This document shows positions 11,747 to 46,611 of a stretch of DNA of 64,000 nt, piece by piece; position 1 is the stretch's first letter, and the number at the start of each line of letters is the position of its first letter. The notes beneath the pieces were generated by a model. It was not told the origin of the DNA and made no database searches. It saw nothing but the letters and a program-made list of their open reading frames with translations. The translations under genes and the position numbers were made by a program. The stretch comes from Arcobacter ellisii (GTDB lineage: Bacteria > Campylobacterota > Campylobacteria > Campylobacterales > Arcobacteraceae), in NCBI RefSeq assembly GCF_003544915.1, contig NZ_CP032097.1, forward strand, positions 2,356,001-2,420,000, read 5' to 3'.

Positions 11747-11754
11747 AAATTATC

Positions 11755-22603: not shown

Positions 22604-23667
22604 ATGAAAAACTATAATATATCAATAATCAAAGGTGATGGGATAGGTCCAGAAATCGTTGATGAAGCAATAAAAGTATTAAACGCAGCTGCAAAAAAAT
22701 GTGATTTTGAATTAAATTATAAAGAGTATTTAATGGGTGGTATGCTATTGATACTACTGGTGTTCCACTTCCACAAGAGACAGTTGATGGAGTTTTAAAC
22801 TCTGATGCTTGTTTGTTTGGTGCAATTGGTGGAGAAAAATGGGATACACTTCCTAGAGAATTAAGACCAGAAACTGGATTATTAAAATTCAGAGAAGAAA
22901 TGGGTGTATACGCAAACTTAAGACCTGCAATTATTTATGACGAATTAGTAAATGCATCAACTTTAAAACCTGAAGTAATTCAAGGTGTTGATATTATGAT
23001 TGTAAGAGAATTTGGTGGAATCTATTTTGGAAAACCAAGAGAAAATGATGGATTTAAAGCATTTAATACAATGGTTTATACAAAACCAGAAATTGTAAGA
23101 ATTGGTAAAACAGCATTTGAACTTACAAGAAAAAGAAGTAAAAGAGTTTGTTCTGTTGATAAAGCAAATGTTTTAGAAGTTTCTCAACTTTGGAGAGATA
23201 CTATGAATGAATTAGCAAAAGATTACCCAGATGTTGAATTAACTCATATGTATGTAGATAACGCAGCAATGCAACTTGTAAGAAACCCAAAACAATTTGA
23301 TGTTATCGTAACAGGAAATATCTTTGGTGATATTCTTTCAGATACAGCTTCAATGGTAGTTGGTTCAATTGGATTACTTCCAAGTGCTTCAACAGGAGAT
23401 AAAACAGCAATATATGAACCAATACATGGCTCAGCACCAGATATAGCAGGAATGGGAATAGCAAATCCAATAGCAACAATCGTAAGTGCAGCAATGATGC
23501 TAAGATACTCTTTAAATGAAGTAAAAGCAGCAGATATGATAGAAGAAGCAATAAAAGCAGTATTAAAAGATGGATATAGAACAAAAGATTTAGCAGCATT
23601 TGATGCAAAAGAGGTGTTAAATACAACTGCTATGGGTGATATTGTTGCTAGATACGTAAGTAGATAA
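22604..23667 (+). pseudogene. leuB: 3-isopropylmalate dehydrogenase, frameshifted
   Basis: The frame from 22604 encodes the LeuB N-terminus (IIKGDGIGPEIVDEAIKVL...EYLMGG), then breaks. From about 22743 a second frame continues with [31 protein letters not shown] and the rest to YVSR. One base is missing after GGTGGT: ATGCTATTGAT should be ATTGCTATTGAT, or similar. Everything else, including the Asp residues of [10 protein letters not shown] and the C-terminal nucleotide site [10 protein letters not shown], looks intact. LeuB oxidises 3-isopropylmalate in leucine synthesis. Either a recent mutation or an assembly error. Confidence 0.9.
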
Positions 23668-23710: not shown

Positions 23711-23735
23711 CAAATAAGCTTTAAAAGCTTATTTG
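23711..23735 (+). terminator. leuB terminator overlapping the left attachment site
   Basis: CAAATAAGCT / AGCTTATTTG with a TTAAA loop, 44 bases after the leuB stop. Its right arm is the first part of the att repeat, so one arm is chromosomal and the other is shared with the island end. Confidence 0.7.
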
Positions 23736-23783
23736 ATTAGATAATTAGTTTTTTGGGAGTAATTTTATAGGAACTATCTGGAA
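23727..23783 (+). repeat. Left attachment repeat (attL)
   Basis: The first 33 bases (GCTTATTTGATTAGATAATT onward to 23759) are identical to 46604-46636. The next 24 match with three differences. Read on the minus strand it encodes the displaced end of YciI (FQIVPIKLLPKN, stop), with I where the current gene has V. Confidence 0.92.
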
Positions 23784-24599: not shown

Positions 24600-25001
24600 C
24601 TACAGATAATTTATCAATTCTTTTTTTATTTTTTCCAATTCTTCTTTTAAAAAATTCATTTTTTTTGTCATTTTTGCTAAATTTTCAATTTTCTTAAATT
24701 CTTCAAAAAGTTCAAGTTCATCTTCATTTTCAGAACCTTGATTAATTGTTCCACCATTTACTTGAGATATATTTTTTGTTCCACCTGAAATATGAAAAGT
24801 TGGTTTATCTTCACTTGAAAGCCAATCAAGAGAAACACCTGTCTCTTCTGCAACTTTAAGTAAATACTTATTTGGTATGGCATTCCTTTTTTTCCAACTA
24901 TCTATTGTAGAAAGAGTTATATTAAGTTGACTTGCTAACTCTGAATATGAAGTAACATCCATTGCAATTTTCATTTTTTCAGTTGTAATTTTAACATCCA
25001 T
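24600..25001 (-). CDS. CI-like phage repressor (HTH), short form
   Basis: About 133 residues. ATG 25001, preceded by AAGGG, is preferred to the TTG six codons upstream. The N-terminal domain is a CI/bacteriophage repressor HTH: YSELASQLNITLSTIDSWKKRNAIPNKYLLKVAEETGVSLDWLSS. An ISGG-x-x-NI-x-Q motif (about 72-83) and a C-terminal coiled coil follow. It lacks a LexA/S24-type self-cleaving domain, so induction by RecA cleavage is unlikely. It lies divergent to a strong promoter with palindromic operators and is probably the master repressor of the island. Confidence 0.82.
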   Translation of the reverse strand: MDVKITTEKMKIAMDVTSYSELASQLNITLSTIDSWKKRNAIPNKYLLKVAEETGVSLDWLSSEDKPTFHISGGTKNISQVNGGTINQGSENEDELELFEEFKKIENLAKMTKKMNFLKEELEKIKKELINYL

Positions 25002-25038
25002 ATCTTTTACCCTTATCAAATAATATCATTTAATAAAA

Positions 25039-25082
25039 AAGTTCAAAAAGAACTTGACATACATTCTAAAAGAATGTATAAT
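25039..25082 (+). promoter_or_regulatory. Consensus promoter with two palindromic operators
   Basis: TTGACA (25054-25059), a 17-bp spacer and TATAAT (25077-25082) make a perfect sigma-70 promoter reading right. The spacer is the palindrome TACATTCTAAAAGAATGTA (25060-25078). A second palindrome, AAGTTCAAAAAGAACTT (25039-25055), overlaps the -35. Both share TTC-N5-GAA with centres 22 bp (two turns) apart. This is a repressor-controlled early promoter, with the repressor gene divergent. Confidence 0.85.
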
Positions 25083-25351
25083 ACACTCAATGATTAGCCA
25101 AAATGAGTCACTTGGCTTTTTGATTATAACAAGTTGATTATAACAAGTTCTTTAATATGCAAAGCTAATAGATATAAATAGCCACTTCGGACTGGATATT
25201 AGTGCTTAGAAACAATAGTGACTGTTTTTAAGGTTGTTTTACTTTTTAATTAAAGGGTCAACTGTTATGCGGGGATATATGGTCAAAGGCATATATCAAT
25301 TTACTTTGATTAATTTCAAAGATTTAGGATTAAACAAAATAAGGAAGAATA
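25083..25351 (+). other. Long untranslated leader after the early promoter
   Basis: About 260 bases lie between the promoter and the first gene. They include a perfect 14-bp tandem repeat TGATTATAACAAGT (25121-25148), AGCCACTTCGGACTGG and GCGGGGATATATGGTCAAAGGCATATAT, with more G/C than the surroundings. No protein frame with a ribosome binding site was seen. It could be a structured leader or a small RNA. Confidence 0.35.
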
Positions 25352-25609
25352 ATGACAAATTCGGAAAAAGTAAAAATGATTATAAATGAAATAAAAGCTA
25401 TGTACCCAAACAAAATGGTTTTAAATGCGACTCAAATGACAAGAACAATAGGAATAAGTTTGAGGACATTTTCTAGAATAATAATGGCTGAAGAATGGAG
25501 TAAATTACCACCATTTAAAAGCGAAGAAGTGAAAAGGAAAGATGGTATGAAAAGCACTAAATATCAATTTAATATTTTTGATATTGCTGAATTTTTATCA
25601 AAAAAATAG
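25352..25609 (+). CDS. Small DNA-binding-like protein of the early operon
   Basis: 85 residues with a helix-turn-helix-like stretch NATQMTRTIGISLRTFSRII (about 25-44) and a C-terminal FDIAEFL segment. AAGGAAG precedes the ATG. First gene after the regulated promoter and 11 bases before the AlpA-like gene. Probably a regulator or recombination directionality factor; no family recognised. Confidence 0.55.
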   Translation: MTNSEKVKMIINEIKAMYPNKMVLNATQMTRTIGISLRTFSRIIMAEEWSKLPPFKSEEVKRKDGMKSTKYQFNIFDIAEFLSKK

Positions 25610-25620
25610 GGAGTAAAAGA

Positions 25621-25824
25621 ATGAATGAAGATAAATTTATTAAAAAAGCAGAAGTACTTACTGAATATATAAAGATAGGAGAAACAAAACTTGATGAAAT
25701 AATAAAGAATGGTAATTTTGTTGAGCCTATACCTATTGAAGGGTTTGCTCATAGCTTATATAGTGTCCTGGAGATACAAAAATGGATGGATGACCAAAAA
25801 CAAAAAAGAAATATAAAAAAGTAA
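25621..25824 (+). CDS. AlpA/excisionase-like small HTH protein
   Basis: 67 residues: FIKKAEVLTEYIKIGETKLDEIIKNGNFVEPIPIEG followed by YSVLEIQKWMDDQKQ, the layout of AlpA/MerR-like excisionases in which a helix-turn-helix is followed by a wing and a W-containing helix. AlpA activates integrase or acts in excision. It fits beside the repressor and is 67 residues, the usual length. Confidence 0.72.
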   Translation: MNEDKFIKKAEVLTEYIKIGETKLDEIIKNGNFVEPIPIEGFAHSLYSVLEIQKWMDDQKQKRNIKK

Positions 25825-25887
25825 CTCCCTCTTAAAAGACTTTGGCGAAGTGGCTAAGAGAGAGCTGTTAAAACGGCTTAAGGCTTT

Positions 25888-25925
25888 AACTAAGTGAATA
25901 CTACAACATAGTAACTTAGTTTTTT
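25888..25925 (+). terminator. Terminator after the AlpA-like gene
   Basis: AACTAAGT (25888-25895) pairs with ACTTAGTT (25914-25921), with an inner ACTA/TAGT pair. Six T follow. Confidence 0.7.
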
Positions 25926-25953
25926 ACAATTACACACATGTGAGGATAAATAT

Positions 25954-26295
25954 ATGAGTGAAAAAGATAAGCAAACAGGATTAGCGGACTATACAACAAT
26001 AAAACATCATCCACGTGTTAAATATGACCTTTCAAATAATGATTATTGCATTGCAAATGCAATATATCATCTTAGTAATAACCCAGATAGTAAATTCAAA
26101 GGTTGGTATTATGGAAAAATTGAAACATTAGGTCAAATGTTTAATTTTGGAAGAACTGCTACATATGAATCAATTAAAAAATTAACTGAAAAAAATCTAG
26201 TAGAAAAAGACCCAGAAAGTGGTTTTTTAAAAACAACAAATAAATGGTGGGATGAATTTGTAAATTTTGAAATTGGACAGTTGTCCGGAAAGTGA
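25954..26295 (+). CDS. Winged-helix protein, replication-initiator-like
   Basis: 113 residues: KYDLSNNDYCIANAIYHLSN then GWYYGKIETLGQMFNFGRTATYESIKKLTEKNLVEKDPESG, a winged-helix domain like those at the N-terminus of phage and plasmid replication proteins. The frame stays open after the TGA for 23 codons, to a stop at about 26365, so the ancestral protein may have been longer. Repeats with a TCCGGA core begin inside its last codons. It is likely to bind DNA and may start replication of the excised island. Confidence 0.55.
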   Translation: MSEKDKQTGLADYTTIKHHPRVKYDLSNNDYCIANAIYHLSNNPDSKFKGWYYGKIETLGQMFNFGRTATYESIKKLTEKNLVEKDPESGFLKTTNKWWDEFVNFEIGQLSGK

Positions 26296-26360
26296 ACTAG
26301 AATCCATAAAACGAATTATAACTGTTCGGAAAATGAATTAAATAATCCGGAATCCGGACA
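26282..26360 (+). repeat. TCCGGA-centred iteron-like repeats
   Basis: TGTCCGGAAAGTGAACTAGA (26282) and TGTTCGGAAAATGAATTAAA (26323) are two related 20-mers, 41 bp apart. TCCGGA (26346) and TCCGGACA (26353, inverted) follow. Such G+C-containing repeats stand out in this A+T-rich DNA. They could be an origin bound by the winged-helix protein, or coding remnants of its tail. Confidence 0.45.
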
Positions 26361-26411
26361 CATATAATAATATATATAACAATATCCATAAAGAAGAAGA
26401 GGAAGAAGAAA

Positions 26412-26780
26412 ATGATTGATGAAAATCAAAAAATTGAACTCTTTGATAAATTTTATGATTGGTTAAAAGCAGATGGATTGAAGCCTAAAACAAGTGAAAG
26501 ACTGCATCGAAAAAAGATATTTAGTTCTTTACTTAACAATAATCAAATGACACTAGATAATTTTAAAGACTTTTTAGAAGATATAAAGATACAAGATATC
26601 GAAAACTTACAAAGTCAAACAATAAATTATCAAAATCAATTATTTACCATTGATGAAGTAGTAGTAAATAAAAATCTTGAAGAATTTACACTTAAAAATC
26701 TAGCTTTAAATGCCAACATAAAATGTAAATTTAATCAATTAGCTCAAATACAAAATTTAGTTCACAAAGAAAATAGTTAG
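26412..26780 (+). CDS. Unrecognised small helical protein
   Basis: 122 residues, mostly helical and charged (KIELFDKFYDWLKADGLKPKTSERLHRKKIFSSLL). AAGAGGAAGAAGAAA before the ATG gives a purine-rich ribosome binding site. No membrane segment or known motif. It lies between the winged-helix gene and the ParA operon; a 118-bp spacer with TACCCTTT/AATCCCTACGG follows. Confidence 0.55.
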   Translation: MIDENQKIELFDKFYDWLKADGLKPKTSERLHRKKIFSSLLNNNQMTLDNFKDFLEDIKIQDIENLQSQTINYQNQLFTIDEVVVNKNLEEFTLKNLALNANIKCKFNQLAQIQNLVHKENS

Positions 26781-26898
26781 CCAATATTTATGAGCTAAGG
26801 GAATGGTTAATTTTGTTTTGCCTACCCTTTAATCCCTACGGCAAAATCAAAGACAAGCAAAATTAACACGATATAAAACAACAGAAGAAAGGCAAAAG

Positions 26899-27609
26899 AT
26901 GTCACAAAAAGAAAATACAAATACATTTGTAGTGTGTAGTTTAAAAGGTGGAGTTGGTACTACAACTTTATCTGAAATATTAGCTACATTATTACATAAA
27001 GAAGATAGAACACTAACTATTTATCACCCAGATAGTTTCAATGTTATTGATGATGAGCAACAAAATTTCGAATTGGTTCATATAGGTACAAAATCAATTC
27101 AATTACAAAATTTTGGTAAGAAAATTAGTTCAGAGTATATTGATTTTCTTTTCAAAAAAACAAGAAATATAAACATTGTTGATATAAATAAAGATGCTTT
27201 TGAGTTACTAGAAGAACTAGGTATGGGAGTTAATTATTATATTCCACTAACTGATAATGCAATTGAAGTAGATCTTGCAATCAAGACAATAGAAATAATC
27301 GAAGAATTTAGTATCGATCCAAAAATATATTTGATTCTGAATAAATGTAATTCATTAAATAAAAATGAGATAAAAAAACAATTTATAGGCTTGTTCGGGG
27401 ATAAAAAAATAGGAATAAAATCAAGAATAGATGAAATAACTGTTGATAATATCTTCTATATTCCAACATCTAAAATATTTAGTGAATTCTCACTAACAAA
27501 AAGCAATCTACTTGATTATCTAAATTCAAATAATCAAAAAAATGAAGCATTTAATCAAGAAGTTGAACATTTTGTTCAAAAAATACAAGATTTAAAAAAA
27601 TCGTTTTAA
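26899..27609 (+). CDS. ParA-like protein with degenerate P-loop
   Basis: 236 residues, clearly a paralogue of the next gene. The deviant Walker A reads KGGVGTTT at 16-23: the signature Lys16 is kept but the nucleotide-binding Lys at 21 is Thr. The adenine-site region LILNKCNSLNKNEIKKQFIGLFGD is shared with the paralogue. It probably binds nucleotide poorly or not at all and may be a structural partner in a heterodimer. First of six packed genes. Confidence 0.8.
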   Translation: MSQKENTNTFVVCSLKGGVGTTTLSEILATLLHKEDRTLTIYHPDSFNVIDDEQQNFELVHIGTKSIQLQNFGKKISSEYIDFLFKKTRNINIVDINKDAFELLEELGMGVNYYIPLTDNAIEVDLAIKTIEIIEEFSIDPKIYLILNKCNSLNKNEIKKQFIGLFGDKKIGIKSRIDEITVDNIFYIPTSKIFSEFSLTKSNLLDYLNSNNQKNEAFNQEVEHFVQKIQDLKKSF

Positions 27610-27620
27610 AAGGAAAACAA

Positions 27621-28424
27621 ATGAAAAAGAATCAAAAAACAAATATTAATACACATGTTGTATGTAACACAAAAGGTGGCGTTGGAAAAACAATAACAGG
27701 TTCGATGATTTTACCTCTTATTTTACATTCTATGGACAAACAAATTTCAGTATATGAGATAGATGATAATAATCAAATTTCTATTTCATCAAATCACATT
27801 AAATTTAAAAGCATTCAAATTCGAGAAAGTGAAGATGTATTAGACCAAGTATATTTTGATAGTTTTTCACAAGATCTAAATAAAATAAATATCATAGATT
27901 GTGGAGGAGGAAATGACACAAAAGCAATTTTAAATTCTCTTGCTCAAAGTGATATGAATTCTCTTAACTACTACATTCCAATCAATGATGATTACGATCA
28001 AGTTGATAATGTAAAAACCACTATTAGATTAATCAAAAGCTTTGATTCTAATCCTACTATTAATTTAATTCTTAATAGATGTATTAGTATGGATAAAACA
28101 GAAATTAAAAAACAATTTTCTTCGCTTTTCGGTGATGATGAAATTGATCTTCCATCAAGAATTGAGCAACTAGAATTTGACAATCTATTCTTTATACCAA
28201 ATACAAATATATTTTCACTTTTAAAATCTCACTATCAAATTGCATTACTTGATAGTTATATTAATGCTGCTGATTTAGTTGCAAATAAAGATACATATCA
28301 TATTGCTTGGCAACAAGAAGGTGAAGAAAAATTTATGAGAAATATGAAAATGTTTAGATTTGCTAAAAAAGTTTTACAACTAGTTGAACAACTACAACCA
28401 CTCAAAAAATCATTAGGAGTGTAA
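27621..28424 (+). CDS. ParA-like ATPase with intact Walker motif
   Basis: 267 residues. KGGVGKTI is at 18-25, and INIIDCGGGNDTKAIL replaces the D-box. LILNRCISMDKTEIKKQFSSLFGDDEIDLPSRIEQLEFDNLFFIPNTNIFS aligns almost position by position with the upstream paralogue, apart from conservative changes. Such ATPases position DNA or protein complexes along the nucleoid or membrane. It lies 11 bases after the paralogue and 5 before a tail-anchored coiled-coil protein, so a membrane-linked role is likely. Confidence 0.82.
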   Translation: MKKNQKTNINTHVVCNTKGGVGKTITGSMILPLILHSMDKQISVYEIDDNNQISISSNHIKFKSIQIRESEDVLDQVYFDSFSQDLNKINIIDCGGGNDTKAILNSLAQSDMNSLNYYIPINDDYDQVDNVKTTIRLIKSFDSNPTINLILNRCISMDKTEIKKQFSSLFGDDEIDLPSRIEQLEFDNLFFIPNTNIFSLLKSHYQIALLDSYINAADLVANKDTYHIAWQQEGEEKFMRNMKMFRFAKKVLQLVEQLQPLKKSLGV

Positions 28425-28429
28425 TAACT

Positions 28430-29002
28430 ATGGAAAACAAATTAATTGCAATTGATAAATCACAAATTGAAGAACTTATTGACACATTAAAATTTCTTCA
28501 ATTGAAAGTTTTATCAACATTAAAAAATGATCAAGATGGTGGATTAGTAAAAGAACTTAAAAATATCAATGATGAAATAGCAAATCTTACTGATACAGTA
28601 AGTACACTTGATGACTTATGTCTTAAAAGCGAAGAAATATTAAAAAACTTCACAAATTTCGAAGTCAATTATAAAAAAATACTTGATGAACAAATATTGA
28701 AAGCTGAAAATTTGAAAGATACACTCGAACTAAGAGCAACAATTTGGACGGAACAATTAGGGGAAAATTTAAATACTCTCAAAAGTGAACTTGAAAAAGA
28801 AATCTCAAAAAAATTAAAAGATGTTGATTTAAAAAAATTTGAAAATGCAAATCAAAATGTAAAAGATGCAATTAAGAATTTTGATATTTTTCATCAAAAA
28901 ATGGAAAAATCTTATTTAAAAAATAACATATTGACAGGAATTATAAGTTTTTTAGGTGGTGGTACTGTAATCGGTTCACTTGTTTATTTCTTTTTAAAAT
29001 AA
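28430..29002 (+). CDS. Tail-anchored coiled-coil protein
   Basis: 190 residues. Residues 5-160 are predicted helical coiled coil with regular heptads (LKNINDEIANLTDTVSTLDDL...). A single C-terminal membrane helix (ILTGIISFLGGGTVIGSLVYFFL, about 166-188) contains a GGG kink. The layout resembles small mobilisation or partition accessory proteins (MbeD/MobB-like), but no motif proves that. It is the fourth partner candidate for the ParA pair. Confidence 0.6.
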   Translation: MENKLIAIDKSQIEELIDTLKFLQLKVLSTLKNDQDGGLVKELKNINDEIANLTDTVSTLDDLCLKSEEILKNFTNFEVNYKKILDEQILKAENLKDTLELRATIWTEQLGENLNTLKSELEKEISKKLKDVDLKKFENANQNVKDAIKNFDIFHQKMEKSYLKNNILTGIISFLGGGTVIGSLVYFFLK

Positions 29003-29012
29003 AGGATAAAAA

Positions 29013-29312
29013 ATGGTAATGCGTCAAAAATCAAAAACAGATATGGCTACACAACTTGCTATATCTGATGAAATCAAAACTTTAAATGAAAATATTGAAA
29101 TTGTGGCATCTTTATTAAAAGATATAAATATTCCTTTTCTTGCAGGTAAAAATGGTCAAGAATTACTTGCTATGTTTATCCAAATTAGAAACCTTTTCAA
29201 AGATAAAAATGAAAAAGTAGAAAAGAAGATGATAATCCTTGAAAAATTACCACTTTTATATTTACAAATTAGTTTCATAAAACAACAAATAAAATCAGGA
29301 GCAAGTGCATGA
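29013..29312 (+). CDS. Unrecognised small helical protein
   Basis: 99 residues, no membrane segment, helical with a hydrophobic middle (FLAGKNGQELLAMFIQIRNLF). It overlaps the next gene by four bases (ATGA), which ties its translation to that membrane protein. Function unknown. Confidence 0.6.
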   Translation: MVMRQKSKTDMATQLAISDEIKTLNENIEIVASLLKDINIPFLAGKNGQELLAMFIQIRNLFKDKNEKVEKKMIILEKLPLLYLQISFIKQQIKSGASA

Positions 29313-29929
29313 AAAATATAGGTACAACTCTTGGTTTATGGTGGCTTAGTAGCTTTGACAAGTCTCAATTTTTATTTAAAAGTTTGAGAACTCTTCCAGT
29401 TTATTTACGATATTTGTTTTATGTATCTTTAATTACAGCTCTATATTTTACTATCGTAAAATTAGGAGCTATTATTGATGTTAGATCATATACATCTATT
29501 CCTGTATTTATCCAAAGCCTTTTAATCTTAATTGGCTTTGGTATAAAAGCACTAAGTGTAATTTTTACTATGGGAATTTTTTCGTATGAGAATTTATATA
29601 GTAGCAATTTTGATGTTGATAAACACCTGGAACAACAAAGAGAAAAGAAACAATATATAAGAGAAAACCAACTTGAAAAATACAGATTAAGAAATATACA
29701 TGGATTTATTAGGATTTTATTATATATTGGAATTTACTGCTTTCTATATCTTCTCTTGGAAGATATTTTGGTTAGTGCATTTTTTAACGTTTATCCTAAT
29801 CCATCAAAAGAGATTTATATTAAATTTCTCTACGATTATGATTTTGTTATCAAATGTTTTACAGGTATATATTTCATCTTCACTTTGGTTTTAGACTATT
29901 TCGTAAGAAAAAATAGGAGCTTACAATGA
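29309..29929 (+). CDS. Unrecognised polytopic membrane protein
   Basis: 206 residues with about four membrane helices: 30-50, 62-90, 130-150 and 175-195. A basic/glutamine-rich cytosolic loop (KHLEQQREKKQYIRENQLEKYRLRN) lies in the middle. Overlaps both neighbours by four bases. Likely forms a complex with the 829-residue protein encoded next. Confidence 0.6.
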   Translation: MKNIGTTLGLWWLSSFDKSQFLFKSLRTLPVYLRYLFYVSLITALYFTIVKLGAIIDVRSYTSIPVFIQSLLILIGFGIKALSVIFTMGIFSYENLYSSNFDVDKHLEQQREKKQYIRENQLEKYRLRNIHGFIRILLYIGIYCFLYLLLEDILVSAFFNVYPNPSKEIYIKFLYDYDFVIKCFTGIYFIFTLVLDYFVRKNRSLQ

Positions 29930-32415
29930 AAACATTTTTAATCTTCCTATTTAGTTTTATATTTGCTCTTAAATCTTTTGCATATACAGAAATAAGTACA
30001 TCAAATGTAATGGAAGATTATAGAAAAGGAGACATGGAAAAATATAAAAATGATGATTTATTGCCAATTTCTAAAGAAGCTCTTATAAGTAGAGGAATTA
30101 TCTCTAATGAAAGCCAATTAACAAGACAAATTGCAACTCCAATTAATAGTGCAAATATAAGATCAAGTATAACTTGTTCTTTTGTGGGTAATGATTGGAC
30201 TGCAACTGTTTATTCAATAAATGCTCAAAGTGGGATAGTTACTTGTATGGTTGCAAAAAAAGGAGATTTATATAATCCTATTGGAGTATTTGATATAAGT
30301 TATCCAAATTTAAAAGAAGCCTTTGCGTTAGATTTAAAAAAAGCAGAAGAAAAAAATAAAAATTTAATTGATAATGCAGATAATCAATTTAAACCTTTAC
30401 AAGATTCAGTAAGTTCTATTCAAAGCTCAATTTTAAATCAAACTGGAAATTATTTAACTATTCCTAGACTATTAACTGCTGCAATTTTGAGTGATACTGA
30501 TATTGTTGATGTTGATGCAACTAAAACAGCAGGTAAACTACAACTAAAAGATAATTTTGTATCAAGTTACTTTGATTCAGGTTCTAATGAATTTGTTGAC
30601 AATAAAGAGTATATTTTAACAGATGCAGAAACAATTTTTAGTGTTTATACAGGTCTAAGTGATGTAGGTATGATATATCTTATTTTGTTAATAGCATTTT
30701 TTGGAATCTGGGGATTAGGAAGTAAAACTTTATCTCATCTTTCTTCAAAAGTTGAAGAAAAACAAAATCATGAAAAAGTATCTCCATATGTTACAGGTAT
30801 TGTATTAGGTATCTTACTATTCTTTCCAACTGGATTTAAAGAGCAAGTTTCAAACAATGGCCAAGTAGTTGCAGAGTATGACATCATGAAAACAAAATAC
30901 CAGGATTTTGAAAAAAGTGGATATTACTTATTTAGTGATTGGGCTGATGCAGCTGCTAAAGTAATTATTGATGCAGAAATAAACGCAATCATTAAAAAAA
31001 GTGGAGTTGGGACAAAAGAACAAATTATTCAAACAAGTGCAAGTAAAACTCAAGCAGAAGAATTAAAAAACTTTACAAGAATAGTGACAGAAATTTGTGA
31101 AAATAATATCTATAACTATGATGGATTAATTGATAGTGAAGGAAGACATCAATATTCAATAGATCCAAATGTTGCATATCCTACAAGTGAAAAATGGGCA
31201 TATGCAAATAGCAAAATTAGAAGTAATACTTCAAACTTATACTATTCAGTTGTTGATGGAGAAGTAAAAAGTAGTGGTGCTTATAATCAAAATGTTTTAA
31301 ATAAAGTAAATGGAAATAATCCTTTAGACAACTATTATCCTGAATATAGTTTAAGTCTATGTGGTAAAAACTATTATGCAGATCAAGAAAACCTCTCAAA
31401 ACTAAAAAGCAATAATGAATCAATGGAGTTATTATCTAACTCTTCTAATAAAATTCCAATGCTACAAGGACTCATAAAATTTCAATATGAGTTATATAGA
31501 GACTTTGGATATTTAGCTGTTCTTGGATTACCCGTTACAAAACTTCAAACGGAGTATATTGGCGGATTATATAAAACAAAAAGAAGTGAAGTTTTAGAAA
31601 AACTAAATGATGAAGTAAAAGAAGATTCTTGGGGAACTCATATGATTATGAGTTCAATTCCATATATGTTTGTTCCAGGAGCAGGAACAATATTTAATGT
31701 TGTTACTGAAAACTCTGGAAAAATTGGAGGTGCTATTGGAGGTGCAGGAGGTGCAGCTGCAGGTGGTGGAATATTAAGTTGGTTAAGTGGAACAGTTGGT
31801 ACTATTGCAGGAGCAGCAGTTGGTACTCTAGGAGGAGGAATATTAGGTATGTATTTTGCTTATGAAACAGCAAAAACAGTACTAGAACTTACTCCAATAG
31901 TTGGATTAGTTGTAATTGGATTACTTAGATTTATAGTTATTATGATAAAGATTTTTAGTTTTCATTTTGCTAGTTTATTTATGATGCCTATTATGTTTGC
32001 AAGACAAAATATAGAAGCAATATCAAGATTTACGATGAAAATATTTGCAACTATGTTAGAACTTCCAATATTTGTTTTAGCTGTTTGGTTGGCAATGACT
32101 GCAAGTTCTTTAATACATTCAATTGGTGATATTTTTGGTAAGAAAATCATTATCGGAATGTTAGAAAACAACTCTTTGCAACACCAAGCATCTAACACCA
32201 ATCATTGGGAATGGACAAGTAAACTAAAGATTTATGTTTTTGATGGATTTATAGAAATTGCAATTGCTGTGTTTAGTATTGTGATTATTTATAAAATAAT
32301 TGTTTCTCTGCATAGTACTTTATTTGAAGTAATTGAAGTTCAAGGAAGTAAAGAACTTGATAATGCAATTGAATCAATGAAAAATGAAGCAACTGGTTGG
32401 GGAAGTAGAATATAA
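29926..32415 (+). CDS. Large DotA/TraY-like polytopic membrane protein
   Basis: 829 residues. A signal peptide (to about 20) is followed by a periplasmic domain to about 240, two membrane helices (about 243-262 and 285-305), and a second periplasmic domain with several Cys to about 540. Next come a Gly-zipper segment (GAIGGAGGAAAGGG...GGGILGMYFAY, about 600-650) and four or more C-terminal helices with FARQNIEAISRFTMKI and a cytosolic tail. This topology and the C-terminal helix pattern recall DotA/TraY of type IVB secretion, which form membrane-spanning complexes. Sequence similarity was not tested, so the family call is tentative. Confidence 0.5.
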   Translation: MKTFLIFLFSFIFALKSFAYTEISTSNVMEDYRKGDMEKYKNDDLLPISKEALISRGIISNESQLTRQIATPINSANIRSSITCSFVGNDWTATVYSINAQSGIVTCMVAKKGDLYNPIGVFDISYPNLKEAFALDLKKAEEKNKNLIDNADNQFKPLQDSVSSIQSSILNQTGNYLTIPRLLTAAILSDTDIVDVDATKTAGKLQLKDNFVSSYFDSGSNEFVDNKEYILTDAETIFSVYTGLSDVGMIYLILLIAFFGIWGLGSKTLSHLSSKVEEKQNHEKVSPYVTGIVLGILLFFPTGFKEQVSNNGQVVAEYDIMKTKYQDFEKSGYYLFSDWADAAAKVIIDAEINAIIKKSGVGTKEQIIQTSASKTQAEELKNFTRIVTEICENNIYNYDGLIDSEGRHQYSIDPNVAYPTSEKWAYANSKIRSNTSNLYYSVVDGEVKSSGAYNQNVLNKVNGNNPLDNYYPEYSLSLCGKNYYADQENLSKLKSNNESMELLSNSSNKIPMLQGLIKFQYELYRDFGYLAVLGLPVTKLQTEYIGGLYKTKRSEVLEKLNDEVKEDSWGTHMIMSSIPYMFVPGAGTIFNVVTENSGKIGGAIGGAGGAAAGGGILSWLSGTVGTIAGAAVGTLGGGILGMYFAYETAKTVLELTPIVGLVVIGLLRFIVIMIKIFSFHFASLFMMPIMFARQNIEAISRFTMKIFATMLELPIFVLAVWLAMTASSLIHSIGDIFGKKIIIGMLENNSLQHQASNTNHWEWTSKLKIYVFDGFIEIAIAVFSIVIIYKIIVSLHSTLFEVIEVQGSKELDNAIESMKNEATGWGSRI

Positions 32416-32419
32416 ATCA

Positions 32420-32451
32420 AAGAAAGTAATATGAAAAAATATTACTTTCTT
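32420..32451 (+). terminator. Terminator after the 829-residue protein gene
   Basis: A perfect 13-bp stem, AAGAAAGTAATAT / ATATTACTTTCTT, with a GAAAAA loop. Placed five bases after the stop, it ends the ParA-to-DotA-like operon. Confidence 0.8.
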
Positions 32452-32487
32452 ATATTATAATTATTTAAAATTAAAAAAGGAAATTAA

Positions 32488-32979
32488 ATGAGTTTTTCAA
32501 ATAACGTAAAACAGGGTGCAGTAATAGGTGGAGTTCTTTTCTCTGGAGGTATTTTTATAAGATTATTTATTTATTTTTTTATATTTAGTTTTATATCTTT
32601 TATTGTTCTACTATCATTAGATAGTAAGGCAACATCAATCATATATCATTTTTCTTTATTTAATAATAGATCTATTGGTTACTTCTTTCTATTTCTAATT
32701 GCATCTTTACCTGCATTACTATTATTATCACTAAAAGAATGGTCAATTAGAAGATTTAGAAGAAAAAACAATTTACCAATTTATAAAAACATTTCATTAG
32801 AACTTTTACAAATGGAAGCTAATAAAAATGCTCAAATGGAATATGAAGCAAATCAACATATTAAAAATATATATGGCTTTGAAGAAACAAAAGATTTAAA
32901 CTATTGGTTTGAGTTAAAAGAAAAAGGTGCTATTACTCAAGAAGAGTATGAAGCAAAAAAGAAAGAATTTTTAAAATAA
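32488..32979 (+). CDS. Membrane protein with C-terminal SHOCT domain
   Basis: 163 residues: two or three membrane helices (about 10-48 and 60-80), a basic stretch, then a typical SHOCT motif at the end, LNYWFELKEKGAITQEEYEAKKKEFLK. SHOCT modules are short oligomerisation or anchoring tails found on many bacterial membrane proteins. AAAGGAAA precedes the ATG. It lies after the operon terminator, so it has its own promoter or depends on read-through. Confidence 0.72.
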   Translation: MSFSNNVKQGAVIGGVLFSGGIFIRLFIYFFIFSFISFIVLLSLDSKATSIIYHFSLFNNRSIGYFFLFLIASLPALLLLSLKEWSIRRFRRKNNLPIYKNISLELLQMEANKNAQMEYEANQHIKNIYGFEETKDLNYWFELKEKGAITQEEYEAKKKEFLK

Positions 32980-32988
32980 ATTTCACAT

Positions 32989-33012
32989 AAGAGAGATTAT
33001 TGAATCTCTCTT
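32989..33012. terminator. Hairpin between convergent genes
   Basis: AAGAGAGATT / AATCTCTCTT with an ATTG loop. It covers the last codons of the minus-strand gene and lies ten bases after the SHOCT gene stop. Confidence 0.65.
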
Positions 33013-33440
33013 AGAGTTTCAATAGTATCTCTTAAAACTTTAATTTGAAGAGCTTTATCTGTAGTTGATAAATTTGAGTTTTCAACTTCAGCTATTTTTT
33101 CATTTACAAATTTTAAATCATCTTCAACAGATGAAAAGAAAGCAAATTCTTTTAACATACTTGAAATTCTTTGAATATCAAGTTTATATTTTTCAAGATC
33201 ATCATTTTTAAATTGTTCAGAATCTAATGACATTTCAAAACCTCTATCACTTTGAAATTCACCTAAATATTCAACTACAAAATCATAATTATTAGTTGGA
33301 TATTGATTTTCAAAATGTTTGATACCTTGAGATAATGCAGCAGATTTATCATCACTATAAGTGTAATAATTATCTATAAAATGATGATTATTTTTTTCAA
33401 AAACTTGGATTTCATAATTAGGTTCTAATTCTTCATACAT
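32997..33440 (-). CDS. Unrecognised acidic protein
   Basis: 147 residues, strongly acidic, no membrane segment. The N-terminal half is mixed alpha/beta (YEIQVFEKNNHHFIDNYYTYSDDKSAALSQG) and the C-terminal half is helical (FVNEKIAEVENSNLSTTDKALQIKVLRDTIETLREIQ). It stands alone with opposite direction to its neighbours, so it is an independent cargo gene. Function unknown. Confidence 0.6.
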   Translation of the reverse strand: MYEELEPNYEIQVFEKNNHHFIDNYYTYSDDKSAALSQGIKHFENQYPTNNYDFVVEYLGEFQSDRGFEMSLDSEQFKNDDLEKYKLDIQRISSMLKEFAFFSSVEDDLKFVNEKIAEVENSNLSTTDKALQIKVLRDTIETLREIQ

Positions 33441-33529
33441 GATAAAGCCTTTAATTTTTTAAAATTATACAATGTTATTTTTGTTTAATTTTAAAATATT
33501 ACATATTGAAATAAAAAAAGGAGTACAAA

Positions 33530-33907
33530 TTGAGTACAAAAAGAAAAACAAAAAATGATATCTTACTTTCAAATATTGAAGTAATAAAAACTCTTTTAAT
33601 AAATTTATATACTATTCCTAAACAATTAGCTTATATTAGCCAAAACAATAAAAGCAATTTTAGTGTATCAGATACTACATATATGAAATTTTTAAATGAA
33701 TATTTACCAAAAGAGTATGAACAATATAAAAAGAATTTATATTTTAAAACAAGAATTTCAAAAATAAAAGAAATAGCCAAAATATACACAATTATAGAAT
33801 TTCAATTTCATGAATTAAATTTTACTGGGTATATAAATGGAAATACTAAATTAGATTTAACAATAGAAGATTATAAGCATTTTATGATTAGGTATTTTAA
33901 AAATTAA
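33530..33907 (+). CDS. Unrecognised basic protein
   Basis: 125 residues from a TTG start behind AAAAAGGAG. Lys- and Tyr-rich, helical, with no known motif. It sits 87 bp before the NERD gene on the same strand and may share its promoter region. Confidence 0.5.
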   Translation: MSTKRKTKNDILLSNIEVIKTLLINLYTIPKQLAYISQNNKSNFSVSDTTYMKFLNEYLPKEYEQYKKNLYFKTRISKIKEIAKIYTIIEFQFHELNFTGYINGNTKLDLTIEDYKHFMIRYFKN

Positions 33908-33994
33908 ATTATTTCTATAAAAATAATCATTGTATTATTTATTTATAACTATAATTAATACATAATAAATTTTTTTGAATAAAAGGTATATTGA

Positions 33995-34948
33995 ATGACA
34001 TTAAAGAATATTGATGAACATAAAGAAAAACAAATAACTATTTTAAAGAATTTATTAAATCTCTCTCAAAATGAAAATCAAAAAATTTTAATAAAAAAAG
34101 AACTTTCAAAACTAGAAACTGGTTTAAAGGGAGAAAAAGATACAGCTTATTTTATAGATTTTAAATTGAATGATAGTGATAACTATGTAGTACTTCATGA
34201 TTTAAGATTTGAAACTGAAAAATTTTCAGCTCAAATAGATCATTTATTAATAAATAAAGCAATTGGTATCATCTTAGTTGAAACAAAACATACAAAAGCA
34301 AAAGTTACAATAAATGATGATGGAACAATGCTTTATGATTATGGTAATGGAAAATCATTCAATCAAGCTAATCCACTAGAACAATCAAAAAGACATGAAC
34401 AAATTTTACATGAGATTTTAGAAAAATATAATATGAAAATGCATATTGAATCTTATGTAGTATTTCTTCCTGATGTTGTTATAACAAATAAAGAGTTGCC
34501 AAAATATTTTTATAGAGCTGATTCATTTTATGATTCAATAGTTACTAATTTTCAAAGAAGTCCTATGAAAATTTTAGGAGCAATTTCTAAACTTATTACA
34601 AACACAATGCTTACAACAAGAGAAATTGAAAATATTGGTAATATTTTAATTAAAGAACATAAACCAGTAAATATTGATTATGAAAAAAAATATCCTATTT
34701 CAAACTCTAAAAATGATTTAGAAAATGAAAAGGTCATTACTATTCAAAATGAAGAACTTAATGATATAGAAATATTATGTAAGAAAAATAATATTGATAT
34801 TTCAACTTTTAAAGAGATAAAACATGCAGATAAATATATGGGTAAACCAATGGTAAGTTTTATTTGTAAAAAATGTGAAACTACTCAAAAAAAAGGTTTT
34901 AAAACATTTACTGAAACAAAAGTTTTATGTAAAGTTTGTGAGTGTTAA
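33995..34948 (+). CDS. NERD domain protein with C-terminal zinc ribbon
   Basis: 317 residues. Residues 35-160 match the NERD (nuclease-related) pattern: an N-terminal E in GLKGEKDTAYF, then AQIDHLLINKAIGIILVETKHTKAKVTI with D and E-x-K of a PD-(D/E)xK-like nuclease core. The end carries FICKKCETTQKKGF...VLCKVCEC, two CxxC pairs forming a zinc ribbon. NERD proteins are linked to DNA processing and are frequent in accessory DNA. AAAAGG precedes the ATG. Confidence 0.85.
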   Translation: MTLKNIDEHKEKQITILKNLLNLSQNENQKILIKKELSKLETGLKGEKDTAYFIDFKLNDSDNYVVLHDLRFETEKFSAQIDHLLINKAIGIILVETKHTKAKVTINDDGTMLYDYGNGKSFNQANPLEQSKRHEQILHEILEKYNMKMHIESYVVFLPDVVITNKELPKYFYRADSFYDSIVTNFQRSPMKILGAISKLITNTMLTTREIENIGNILIKEHKPVNIDYEKKYPISNSKNDLENEKVITIQNEELNDIEILCKKNNIDISTFKEIKHADKYMGKPMVSFICKKCETTQKKGFKTFTETKVLCKVCEC

Positions 34949-34974
34949 TTAAAAGAATTAGTAAGTTTTAGAAC

Positions 34975-35012
34975 CTTGTCAATCTGATAAAATAATATCA
35001 AGAATTGACAAG
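34975..35012. repeat. Interrupted inverted repeat
   Basis: CTTGTCAAT...ATTGACAAG outside and TGATA...TATCA inside form a 14-bp stem with small bulges, between the NERD gene and the HigBA pair. It may end transcription of one or both. No strong T-run. Confidence 0.55.
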
Positions 35013-35037
35013 AAGAATAATCAATACTCTTTAAAAT

Positions 35038-35328
35038 TTAAGCAGTAACTTGAACTTTAACTCCAAGTGAACCAAGTATTTTCATAATAGTGTCAAATTT
35101 AGGTTTTGTGCCTTTATGAAAAGTTTTATATAAACTTTCTCTACCTAATCCTGTTTCACTTGCAATTTGGCTCATACCTTTTGCTTTTGCAATATTTCCA
35201 AGAGCTTCTAGTAATTCATCCATATCACCATCTGCTAAGATTTGAGATAGGTATTCTGCTATTACTTCTTTATTATCAAGATATTGTGCTATATCAAAGT
35301 TTGTAAGTTCTACATTACTCATTTTCAA
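35038..35328 (-). CDS. Antitoxin of a HigBA-type module (addiction-module antidote HTH)
   Basis: 96 residues with an XRE-type HTH in the C-terminal half (GMSQIASETGLGRESLYKTFHKGTKPKFDTIMKILGSLGVKV), the pattern of the addiction-module antidote family. The N-terminal part (YLDNKEVIAEYLSQILADGD) would cover the toxin. Its start overlaps the toxin's end by 14 bases; toxin-first order is typical of HigBA. It probably represses the shared promoter through the palindrome at 35622-35639. Confidence 0.88.
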   Translation of the reverse strand: MKMSNVELTNFDIAQYLDNKEVIAEYLSQILADGDMDELLEALGNIAKAKGMSQIASETGLGRESLYKTFHKGTKPKFDTIMKILGSLGVKVQVTA

Positions 35329-35614
35329 GCTCCTTTAAAATCTCATTTGCTTTTTTAATATCATCACTTTGTGATGATTTATCACCACCAACTAATAAAA
35401 CAATAATTTCATCATCTTTTTGAGTATAGTAAACTCTATATCCTGGACCTGTTGGAATTCTAAGTTCACTTATATTATTACCAACTGATTTATGGTCTCC
35501 AAAGTTTCCTAATTTCATTCTCTCAACTCTTCGTAATACTGCAACTTTACCTTGAGTATCTTTGAGCTTTAACAACCATTTTGAAAAGATATTTGTTTGT
35601 TTTATTAAATACAT
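35315..35614 (-). CDS. RelE/ParE-superfamily toxin of a HigBA-type module
   Basis: 99 residues: TNIFSKWLLKLKDTQGKVAVLRRVERMKLGNFGDHKSVGNNISELRIPTGPGYRVYYTQKDDEIIVLLVGGDKSSQ. This is the phage-derived Gp49-like/HigB pattern with conserved ELRI...GYRVYY and LLxGGDKSSQ. Such toxins usually cleave mRNA on ribosomes. The start ATG (35612-35614) has no ribosome binding site and lies five bases after the -10 box, so the message should be leaderless. Confidence 0.9.
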   Translation of the reverse strand: MYLIKQTNIFSKWLLKLKDTQGKVAVLRRVERMKLGNFGDHKSVGNNISELRIPTGPGYRVYYTQKDDEIIVLLVGGDKSSQSDDIKKANEILKELENE

Positions 35615-35619
35615 AAGTC

Positions 35620-35648
35620 ATTGTATCTTAAAAGATACATAGTGTCAA
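35620..35648 (-). promoter_or_regulatory. Toxin-antitoxin promoter with palindromic operator
   Basis: On the minus strand, TTGACA (35648-35643), 17 bp and TACAAT (35625-35620) make a near-consensus promoter. The perfect 18-bp palindrome TGTATCTTAAAAGATACA (35622-35639) fills the spacer and part of the -10. It fits autoregulation by the antitoxin. Confidence 0.85.
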
Positions 35649-35668
35649 GAAGATAAAATTTTTATTCA

Positions 35669-36148
35669 CTAAAAACTTCCTGTATTTTTAAACTGGTTAA
35701 ATCTCAAATTATCTAAACCATTTTTTAATCCAAACATTCTTGCATAACCATCACCATCTTCACATCTATTTCCATGATAAAAAGAAAATTGATTTCTAAA
35801 TTTTTCAATATCAAAATTTAATTTTAGAGGATTTTTTGATAAATAAACATATAAATATGCACTTCTAAGTCTTGCTTGGTTTGAAAGAGTTTTATCATTT
35901 GCTAATTTTTTCCAAATAGCAGTATCTCTATCCAGTAAAAGAGAATAAAGTTCATTTTCAAAATCAAGTTGAGAAGTAAAATATTTTTCATTTTCTAATA
36001 TTCTTAAAAAAGTTTGTTTATTAGCTTTTTGCATTAAATATTTTGCTCTGTCTGGGCATAGATTATCAAGTAAGTTTTTTAGGTTTTTATTAGTTTTTAA
36101 AAACTCTAAATCTTCTCCAAAAAGTTCTATCATATCTTTTTTAGTCAT
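35669..36148 (-). CDS. Unrecognised protein of the phosphoesterase operon
   Basis: 159 residues, helical N-terminal two thirds, then a compact end with FSFYHGNRCEDGDGYARMFGLKNG. No known family. It begins one base after the phosphoesterase stop and is the third gene of a tight operon (HepT-like, phosphoesterase, this one). Confidence 0.6.
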   Translation of the reverse strand: MTKKDMIELFGEDLEFLKTNKNLKNLLDNLCPDRAKYLMQKANKQTFLRILENEKYFTSQLDFENELYSLLLDRDTAIWKKLANDKTLSNQARLRSAYLYVYLSKNPLKLNFDIEKFRNQFSFYHGNRCEDGDGYARMFGLKNGLDNLRFNQFKNTGSF

Positions 36149-36149
36149 T

Positions 36150-36974
36150 TTAAACCTCTATTTGTCTAATCTTAACCCAAGAGCCATTTCCACTTTCATT
36201 GAAATATCCAAGTGGATTACAGATACATTTAACATTATATTCTTCATATTCCAGTTCTTCGTGAGTATGTCCAAATATCCAATATTTCATATTTCCATTT
36301 TTTAAATATTTTTCTCCATCAAAGCAAAAGAACACATTTGATGGATTATTTTGGTATCTAATATTTATATGTTCATTTTTAGCAGATGGATTTATATGAG
36401 TAATCATTACATCACATTTTTGAAAAACCTTTTCAATTTTTGGTCTTTCAATTTGAAAAATATCATCAAAATTTTCAACACCATAAATAAACTCTGCATC
36501 ATTCATAATATTTCGCCACATTACATTAGTTGATTTTCTAGTGAAAGTTTCTGTTGGATATTGTCTAAAGAAATATCCATCATTATACCAACCATCACAA
36601 CCACCAAATTTAACTCCATCTATTTCAACTATCCAACCATCTAAACAATACATTCCAACTTCGCTATTGATTAGTTCTCTCATATTTTCAACTCTTGCAA
36701 ATGAGTTTTTGAATTGAGATTTATTCTCTTTCCCTAATAAATAGTAATCATGGTTTCCAAGAACACAAATTATATTTTTGTAATACTCTTTTAGAATCTT
36801 TAATATTTTTATATTTTGGAAATTATTATGACCAATATCTCCTGCAATTACTAAAACATCTCCACAATTATTAAAATCAATAATTTGGCTATAAAATTTG
36901 ATTACATCATCACTTTTATATTTATTGTAAAAGTAATTATCAAAGTGTACATCACTTAATATATCTATTTTCAT
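36150..36974 (-). CDS. Calcineurin-like metallophosphoesterase
   Basis: 274 residues with the full dimetal motif set: DVH at 8-10, AGDIGHN near 45, LGNHDYY near 72, THINPSA near 170 and FGHTHEE near 245. The enzymes hydrolyse phosphodiesters or monoesters of nucleotides, nucleic acids or lipids. The context (HepT-like gene upstream with 4-base overlap, unknown gene downstream) suggests nucleotide or RNA-end chemistry in a toxin- or defence-like module; that part is inference. Confidence 0.85.
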   Translation of the reverse strand: MKIDILSDVHFDNYFYNKYKSDDVIKFYSQIIDFNNCGDVLVIAGDIGHNNFQNIKILKILKEYYKNIICVLGNHDYYLLGKENKSQFKNSFARVENMRELINSEVGMYCLDGWIVEIDGVKFGGCDGWYNDGYFFRQYPTETFTRKSTNVMWRNIMNDAEFIYGVENFDDIFQIERPKIEKVFQKCDVMITHINPSAKNEHINIRYQNNPSNVFFCFDGEKYLKNGNMKYWIFGHTHEELEYEEYNVKCICNPLGYFNESGNGSWVKIRQIEV

Positions 36975-37582
36975 TTTTTATTTTTCTTACTTTTTATATA
37001 TTCAAGAATATCTTGAATACCATCTTTAGGATCAAACCAAGTTATTTTTTTAACATTCTGCATAAACCATTCACATTCTTGTAAATTACTAAATACAAAG
37101 CAACCCAATTCACTAGGAGAATCATTTTTAGATGTGTAATTATATTTATCTATTTTTCTCATTCCTGCAAATTCTGCTAATCTATCAATTTCATTATAGA
37201 TAGAATTTAAATCATATTTATTCTCATTAATGATTTTTTCTTCATTCATAAGTATTTGTATTCCAAATTTATTTAAATACATTATTGAATTTTTAATACC
37301 AGGTAATATATTTTGAATAAAATCATTTATATTAGAGTTTTCATAATCATTTAAAATAGAATCTTTTATCTTATCTATAGCTTTTAAATTTTCATTTGAA
37401 AAGTTTTTTAATATATCAAATTCATTATCATCTTTTAATTTTACAAATTGTTCAGCAATAATAATTATATTCATCGTAAGTGCAGCTTTTAAAATCTTAT
37501 CTTCAACATTTTCTTTCAATATAAAATTAATATCATCAACAGATTCTAATATTCTTTTTAATTTATCATTAGTTTTAGACAT
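36971..37582 (-). CDS. HepT-like protein with degenerate RNase motif and extra C-terminal domain
   Basis: 203 residues. The N-terminal 105 follow the HepT (DUF86) helix pattern: RILESVDDINFILKENVEDKILKAALTMNIIIIAEQFVKL...NLKAIDKIKDSILNDYENSNINDFIQNILPGIKNSI. The HEPN catalytic RxxxxHxY is replaced by KDSILNDY, so Arg and His are lost. The remaining 100 residues hold a separate domain (LGCFVFSNLQECEWFMQNVKKITWFD). No MNT partner is adjacent. It overlaps the phosphoesterase gene by four bases. Confidence 0.6.
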   Translation of the reverse strand: MSKTNDKLKRILESVDDINFILKENVEDKILKAALTMNIIIIAEQFVKLKDDNEFDILKNFSNENLKAIDKIKDSILNDYENSNINDFIQNILPGIKNSIMYLNKFGIQILMNEEKIINENKYDLNSIYNEIDRLAEFAGMRKIDKYNYTSKNDSPSELGCFVFSNLQECEWFMQNVKKITWFDPKDGIQDILEYIKSKKNKK

Positions 37583-37656
37583 TTTTCAAATCCTTTAATC
37601 ACTATATTTAATACCAAAGATTTAGTTAAAATAAATAATTATTCATAATATTTTTA

Positions 37657-37986
37657 CTATTGCTTTAAATTTGCAAATATATCATGAACTTTTTTTTCTT
37701 TATTAATTTTATTTTCAATAACTATATCTTCATTAGTAGTATTTTCTTTTTTGATATTATTCGATACATCTTTATTTGAAAATCTTCTTTTACAAAATCC
37801 TTGTAAATTAGAATAAGAAACTTTACAATTACAATCTTCTTCTAAAAAACTTTGTACTTGTTTTAAACTAAAATTTGCTTCATATAACAAATATTCAATT
37901 GCTTTTAAATGATCATCTAATTTTGATTTTCGTCCTAAGCCTTGCTCTTTTTGAGCTCTTTTTTTTGCCAATGATAAAGAATCCAT
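37657..37986 (-). CDS. Small TraK-like DNA-binding protein (tentative)
   Basis: 109 residues. A basic N-terminus (SLAKKRAQKEQGLGRKSK) leads to DDHLKAIEYLLYEANFSLKQVQSFLEEDCNCKVSYSNLQGFCKRRF, whose layout resembles the TraK/KfrB-type module of IncP plasmids; TraK binds oriT. The C-terminal 40 residues are charged and probably disordered. It reads away from a 329-bp spacer with oriT-like features, which supports a mobilisation role. Likeness is by eye and weak. AAGG precedes the ATG. Confidence 0.4.
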   Translation of the reverse strand: MDSLSLAKKRAQKEQGLGRKSKLDDHLKAIEYLLYEANFSLKQVQSFLEEDCNCKVSYSNLQGFCKRRFSNKDVSNNIKKENTTNEDIVIENKINKEKKVHDIFANLKQ

Positions 37987-46583: not shown

Positions 46584-46611
46584 AAATAAGCCCGATATTA
46601 TGGGCTTATTT
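46584..46611 (-). terminator. yciI terminator overlapping the right attachment site
   Basis: AAATAAGCCC / GGGCTTATTT with an 8-base loop, 11 bases downstream of the yciI stop. One arm belongs to the shared att repeat, the other to the island. Confidence 0.75.

Follow-up and report, generated by a model that had tools for sequence, protein, structure and literature searches.

A six-gene membrane operon of an integrative island in Arcobacter ellisii as a candidate transfer-helper module

Here we describe a six-gene operon of Arcobacter ellisii, found in a 64,000-nucleotide (nt) stretch of contig NZ_CP032097.1 (positions 2,356,001 to 2,420,000; this whole stretch is called the window). The operon encodes two ParA-type proteins, a membrane-anchored protein of 190 amino acids (aa), a small protein of 99 aa, a 206-aa protein with four transmembrane segments (TMs) and a large protein of 829 aa, and it sits inside an integrative element of approximately 22.9 kb, marked by 57-bp flanking repeats and a tyrosine integrase (Table 1). 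In Arcobacter-like bacteria these genes form a real module of a mobile island, conserved and transfer-derived, and the function that we favor for it, by analogy, is help in transfer. Genomes are denoted by G-numbers (G000 is that of the window, and G030 belongs to its genus), and the letters a and b mark separate loci of one genome.

The six-gene operon and its large membrane protein

The six open reading frames (ORFs), all on the forward strand, are spaced by 11, 5 and 10 nt and then overlap twice by 4 nt, in agreement with the coordinates, gaps (5-11 nt) and 4-nt overlaps given in the preliminary description of this DNA. The terminator placed there at the operon end is likewise present as an AT-rich hairpin, which a G+C-based terminator scan did not pick up. 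As judged by the ratio of non-synonymous to synonymous substitution rates (dN/dS), which is 0.09-0.34 across the six genes in the comparison of the window with G029, all of them are under purifying selection. The deviant Walker A motif of ParA proteins is KGGxGK[ST]; ParA2 fits it, ParA1 has T for K, and the G029 copy of ParA1 has the intact KGGVGKT, both window proteins staying under the Pfam cut-offs. TMs and signal peptides were called by hydropathy throughout. The 206-aa protein has the four TMs ascribed to it earlier, and the 190-aa protein, described as a tail-anchored coiled coil, has a C-terminal TM; the coiled coil is a putative one, a label of that description.

The 829-aa protein has a signal-peptide-like start (residues 1-19) and TMs at 247-265, 285-303, 658-676, 706-724 and 775-793, a spacing which leaves two large non-membrane segments. 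This is the architecture proposed for it in the preliminary description, except that the glycine zipper (600-643) is just a sub-threshold match. Over 25 rows of large proteins nine columns are invariant and four of these are cysteines (C84, C107, C391 and C479), all in predicted non-membrane segments, which is consistent with disulfide bonds and with the DsbA-like gene of a related cluster described below. An AlphaFold model built from seven sequences had a mean pLDDT (predicted local distance difference test) of 45, too low for use.

The same description had likened the large protein to DotA/TraY, and membership of that class was not borne out. When profiles were compared (hhalign), six TraY proteins gave a non-significant probability of 1.9% (P 0.025) over the C-terminal TM region, and comparisons with the single R64 TraY and with F TraG gave 0.3% each, all run without a negative control. 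Searches of Pfam, NCBIfam (expectation value, E, of 1), PHROGs and PDB gave no meaningful match, and Pfam gave no TrbL match. By hydropathy the protein does have the DotA/TraY-class layout, that is a signal-peptide-like start, a long inter-TM segment and a C-terminal TM cluster; the likeness is in layout only. In a review (PMC12857230), extended VirB6 proteins are described as combining five or more hydrophobic helices with hydrophilic domains of large size, and the layout of the 829-aa protein is of that kind.

Relatives of the module and their gene neighbors

Of 104 genomes of the family searched by tblastn with the 829-aa protein, nine had a match (the window genome, G029, G083, G085, G082, G007, G030, G053 and G022). 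The G053 match has 25% identity, and that of G022 (68 residues, Gly-rich) was dropped as a chance match, being absent from the later phylum search. The others form eight close loci, window included, in 7/104 genomes; in the seven further loci, from six genomes (G083 has two), the large protein is 54-87% identical. No stop interrupts its reading frame in any of the eight, and in each the large gene comes directly after the four-TM gene. The four-TM, large and 109-aa proteins occur in 8/8 loci, ParA in seven (not G083a), the 190-aa and the small protein in six (not G007 and G030, where a different 228-aa protein occupies the 190-aa slot), and the bitopic protein in four. ORFs of relative loci came from a simple caller, on which the absence of ParA in G083a depends; it clipped the large gene of G083a at its start (residues 5-829 by tblastn) and overlooked the small gene of G082. 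Regarding the gene order expected in other genomes, the broad order recurs (ParA, the 'coiled coil', a small and a bitopic protein in some loci, four-TM, large), but only 2/8 loci, the window and G029, have exactly these six genes including both ParAs.

The relaxase, coupling-protein and VirB4 models tried on the islands (PF03432, PF08751, PF10412 and PF03135) have no match in any of the eight loci, as had been noted earlier for VirB4, coupling ATPase and relaxase in the island. A relative of the window integrase is present in 4/7 other loci (G030, G083b, G083a and G082); G029, G085 and G007 have another integrase-like gene, so named from mutual similarity alone. Gene content past the 109-aa gene varies between islands. 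Between G007 and G030, compared per 300 nt, the large gene is 94-97% identical, with only 57-73% in the ParA windows and 64-70% in those of the 109-aa gene; because of this near-identity beside divergence, piecewise exchange of genes between islands is suggested.

With the 829-aa protein itself, tblastn found nothing in plasmids or phages, and neither a single-sequence scan of genome contigs nor an alignment scan of viral contigs gave a relative; the alignment query over genome contigs gave six loci. In the phylum search, the large-protein family was found in 25/397 genomes, window included, and an iterated hmmsearch over 1447 ORFs of fetched loci joined 29 large proteins, Campylobacter-plasmid ones among them (run with --max on loci fetched for matching, so that drift is possible). 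On contig MGWK01000055 (G104), a relative of approximately 50% identity lies near the end of a cluster for exported proteins, in which one gene is DsbA-like (DSBA, E 1.5e-7) and SLT gives a questionable match (E 0.16); G106 shares nine genes of this cluster as well as the SHOCT gene. The contig also encodes an ATPase that matches TrwB below threshold and a MOBP relaxase (PF03432, 25.7 bits vs a cut-off of 24.6, first 523 residues scanned), directly upstream of which stands a four-TM homologue. The contig is labelled as a Flavobacteria metagenome-assembled genome, has proteins close to Campylobacterota ones, and is possibly mis-binned.

With the copy from Campylobacter sp. RM16187 as query, tblastn hit 13 PLSDB records, its own included (12 Campylobacter, 1 Helicobacter). 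The match is annotated 'hypothetical protein' in 13/13, and all are typed as non-mobilizable by MOB-suite. Each of the three plasmid records opened (two Campylobacter, one Caminibacter) encodes an SLT protein in addition to one with a 'TraM recognition domain'; because of such neighbors we infer that the plasmid clusters are type IV machines. A six-row ATPase profile (plasmid clusters, G104 and G042) best matches HerA-class structures (4e-13), not a VirB4 model.

Relaxase and coupling candidates were Pfam-scanned in six of 15 fetched relative stretches (G357, G228b, G383, G286, G228 and G056); any G228 relaxase candidate and a 1146-aa protein of G413 were left out. In five chromosomal loci (all but G056) the large protein stands beside a TrwB-type coupling protein (PF10412, 5/5), and three of these, G357, G228b and G286, also have a TrwC relaxase (PF08751). 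The order in G357 is ParA, a 118-aa protein, a 109-aa-type protein, TrwC, TrwB, a 138-aa protein, four-TM, large and small. In a midpoint-rooted tree of 28 large-protein rows, the window islands are joined first by G107 (100/100), next by G104/G105 (99/97), and further out by G228 (97/95) and then G286/G357 (100/100, 14 rows). The deeper joins are unsure because of long branches elsewhere; the Caminibacter row, the weakest of the joined family, has a very long one. Judged by these predicted neighbors, members of the large and four-TM protein families are also found among conjugation genes and next to a coupling protein or relaxase, in line with the earlier suggestion of a transfer-related membrane module of the island.

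The surrounding island

A two-TM SHOCT-type gene adjoins the large gene in the window, G029, G085, G082, G083a, G083b, G105, G104 and G106. It follows the large gene in 6/8 close loci (not G007 and G030), adjoins it on the opposite strand in G228, lies apart from it in G357, and was not found in the G007, G030 and G286 loci. Its dN/dS of 0.51 is the highest among ten genes compared between the window and G029, and over 12 sequences, by eye, the tail is conserved and the TM/loop part variable. In G083b (11017-11940 of the fetched locus) two distinct SHOCT membrane proteins stand in tandem 3' of the large gene.

The 109-aa protein has no library match above cut-off; a relative weakly matches KorA/helix-turn-helix (HTH) proteins, and in G357 and G228b proteins of the 109-aa type lie close to ParA and a relaxase. 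A likeness to RP4 TraK was set aside, having no support from library or plasmid matches.

A conserved non-coding element, a candidate origin of transfer (oriT), was found in 9/104 family genomes at 10 places, window included, and on G104 (84% over 64 bp). Six of the genomes bearing it lack a large-protein match (G010, G020, G025, G055, G063 and G080; the G020 copy is partial). In the window, G029, G085 and G025 it separates the 109-aa-type gene from the cargo, and in G055, G063, G080 and G104 it adjoins a gene of the 33530-33907 family. This placement is compatible with an oriT or with a shared leader, and the element may have a promoter role too; the promoter-like count over 25000-39000 is 100, not above shuffles (mean 106). 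A second motif class (G083a, G083b, G082, G030 and G007) was not used as evidence; in at least 4/5 cases the gene that comes after it is the same cargo gene.

PF03432 is present in 21/104 family genomes, among those with close loci in G000, G030 and G082, and in none inside the islands. In the window genome the match (C1:1292910, outside the window) belongs to a MOBP relaxase (G000:C1:1283000-1302999), which is preceded by a small gene and lies downstream of a presumably aroE-like gene. The elements of G080, G063 and G055 that carry the conserved element likewise adjoin an aroE-like gene.

At the right end of the island, the repeat overlaps a gene which we take to be yciI-like; at the corresponding site elsewhere, shorter repeats bound elements in G053 (44 bp, 86%) and in one G083 locus (31 bp, 100%). 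The slot of the 113-aa gene holds a PF09681 phage replisome-organiser gene in G007. The 67-aa gene had no match in a Pfam scan, and Rfam gave no match. A cargo pair (42793-45142, reverse strand) appears defence-like: its 456-aa ATPase matches PADLOC NsnB (E 1.7e-64, 84 families matched altogether), and its 330-aa neighbor has no match. Just left of the island, a gene at 22604-23667 (forward strand), presumably for a 3-isopropylmalate dehydrogenase-like protein, is broken into two frames near 22798-22813.

Table 1. Features of the island, with window positions; dN/dS values are for the window vs G029.
Feature	Position	Strand	Remarks
Left direct repeat, attL candidate	23727-23783		57 bp, 94.7% identity to 46604-46660
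85-aa small gene, left end	25352-25609	+	ORF; HTH-type by eye alone; homologue in G007
67-aa gene	25621-25824	+	Excisionase/AlpA-like from size and place alone; homologues in G030, G083b, G053
113-aa winged-helix, replication-initiator-like	25954-26295	+	Sub-threshold HTH_27; weak PHROG replication-initiation/DnaD matches
122-aa conserved partner	26412-26780	+	Homologues in G029, G085, G053, G063
ParA1	26899-27609	+	P-loop lysine replaced by T (KGGVGTT); dN/dS 0.25
ParA2	27621-28424	+	KGGVGKT intact; dN/dS 0.09
190-aa protein, C-terminal membrane anchor	28430-29002	+	One TM, 171-189; dN/dS 0.34
99-aa small protein	29013-29312	+	Profile family also in G105, G107, G228, G286, G357; dN/dS 0.27
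206-aa four-TM protein	29309-29929	+	Homologues in 8/8 close loci; dN/dS 0.20
829-aa large protein, VirB6-class-like channel subunit candidate	29926-32415	+	dN/dS 0.13
AT-rich terminator-like hairpin	32420-32451	+	13 bp, -13.8 kcal/mol, z -5.8
163-aa two-TM SHOCT-type protein	32488-32979	+	SHOCT 26.6 bits vs cut-off 27; entry-exclusion candidate by place
109-aa small protein, relaxosome-accessory candidate	37657-37986	-	Kept in 8/8 close loci
Conserved non-coding element, candidate oriT	38154-38218		10 further places: 9 in family search and G104
Tyrosine integrase	45162-46481	-	PF00589, PF13356, PF22022; at right end of island
Right direct repeat, attR candidate	46604-46660		Overlaps 3' end of 95-aa gene 46622-46909 (-)

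Proposed role and comparison with known systems

With moderate confidence, we read the operon as a transfer-helper module of a relaxase-less integrative mobilizable island, which would supply a VirB6-class subunit to the type IV machine of a helper; the analysis suggests that the island slots its own channel part into the transfer machine of another element. Upon entry into the cell of a helper element whose type IV machine matches, the island would excise, and it would be nicked at an oriT mimicking that of the helper. ParA and the membrane-anchored 190-aa protein may place the complex at the membrane, where the 829-aa protein would replace or supplement the VirB6-class inner-membrane channel subunit of the helper. 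The swapped subunit would improve transfer of the island itself, and perhaps bypass entry exclusion by the helper, as does SGI1 TraG. We infer both the exchange of subunits and the oriT role of the conserved element. Among the purposes raised in the preliminary description (transfer, entry exclusion or defence), transfer is the favored one, with entry exclusion conceivable chiefly for the SHOCT neighbor.

Several observations weigh against this proposal. The 829-aa protein has no significant match to any known VirB6-class family tested, and the candidate oriT could be a leader because it stands upstream of cargo genes. Two of the five coupling-protein neighbors (G228b and G383) fall outside the 14-row clade of the window, on long branches, and relaxase candidates of G383 (957 aa) and G056 (499 aa) have no Pfam match at 1e-3. 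Helpers were sought in ten genomes: seven with close loci, G053 and G056 with distant relatives, and G025, which has the conserved element only. VirB4 (PF03135) was found in G082 alone and is absent from the window genome, TrwC was found in none, and PF10412 is over the cut-off in 7/10, outside G082 just at E 3.6e-4 to 5.4e-4 over approximately 40 residues. The G104-type ATPase (one divergent query) is present in 1/104 family genomes, G042, and not in the window genome, which has no detected helper machine usable by the island.

The module might instead interfere with other elements, the large protein acting as a decoy channel subunit which, together with the SHOCT protein, blocks incoming or resident conjugative elements by exclusion or fertility inhibition. 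The two-TM SHOCT gene next to the large gene, with its variable TM/loop part, conserved tail and relatively high dN/dS, and the defence-like cargo ATPase would suit such a role. However, ParA, the integrase and the candidate oriT fit mobilization, and related modules elsewhere adjoin a coupling protein and a relaxase, so we regard interference as unlikely. It is improbable that the operon is a remnant of a decayed integrative and conjugative element (ICE), now without function: the islands do group in the tree near a full cluster and mobilization modules, and ParA1 has lost its P-loop lysine, yet the large and four-TM genes are retained in eight loci with low dN/dS. Quite improbable, too, is a pure maintenance role, in which ParA and its membrane-anchored partners keep the excised circle; the adjacent ParA and replication-initiator-like genes agree with it, but the channel-like large protein common to conjugation clusters is left unexplained. 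A self-sufficient, ParA-powered minimal transfer or secretion machine would account for an island without a match to transfer ATPase models in a genome without PF03135, but it is very improbable, as the large protein of relatives accompanies a HerA-class ATPase or a coupling protein.

Supply of a channel subunit to a helper has precedents. The SGI1 proteins TraN, TraH and TraG take the place of subunits of the helper, and a disabling of entry exclusion is proposed for TraG (PMC5389848); a 2024 review also names SGI1 TraG (PMC11389934). GISul2 has TrbJ, TrbK and TrbL and is thought to act like SGI1 (PMC5704250). In the part of the literature search results that we covered, no description of the six-gene module was found.

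Like SGI1 (PMC5389848, PMC10954446, PMC8409611, PMC5704250), the island encodes a VirB6-class candidate homologous to a subunit of a fuller transfer cluster, here those of G104, G106 and Campylobacterota plasmids, integrates at a gene 3' end and has replication functions. It also has the integrase and flanking repeats expected of the SGI1 type, and no PF03432, PF08751, PF03135 or PF10412 match. SGI1, however, is found in a different phylum and carries TraN and TraH, whereas the island has ParA, the small and four-TM proteins and the 190-aa protein with its anchor; SGI1 is also described as having its own mobilization proteins, MpsA and MpsB (PMC9299015). GISul2 is similar, being described as a putative island with a VirB6-class gene, neighbors of that gene and no relaxase (PMC5704250), but its gene is of the TrbL family and the likeness is one of description. 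The modules of the G357, G228b and G286 type share a homologous large protein, some also the four-TM, small, ParA and 109-aa-type proteins, but they encode a TrwC relaxase and a TrwB-type coupling protein. Two plasmid records of Campylobacter fetus are among those matched by the large-protein relative from Campylobacter; islands and plasmids of this species are reported to have several types of type IV secretion system in virB or tra/trb regions, with parA beside some (PMC4822827).

As far as tested, the module is unrelated in sequence to the SGI1 and GISul2 precedents and would be a further case. Tentatively, as something possible rather than probable, we suggest that it represents a third lineage of channel-swapping islands, independent of SGI1 and GISul2, which relies on a Campylobacterota transfer system that is for the most part unannotated and pairs its VirB6-class piece with a fast-changing SHOCT exclusion partner. 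If so, VirB6 capture would be a general rule for how hitchhiking islands beat entry exclusion. The analysis points to a conjugation-like system across Campylobacterota, in which the channel protein is annotated as hypothetical and the plasmids are typed as non-mobilizable, and to islands that may depend on this system. It would thereby become testable whether, and why, mobilizable islands of unrelated bacteria repeatedly capture the same channel subunit.

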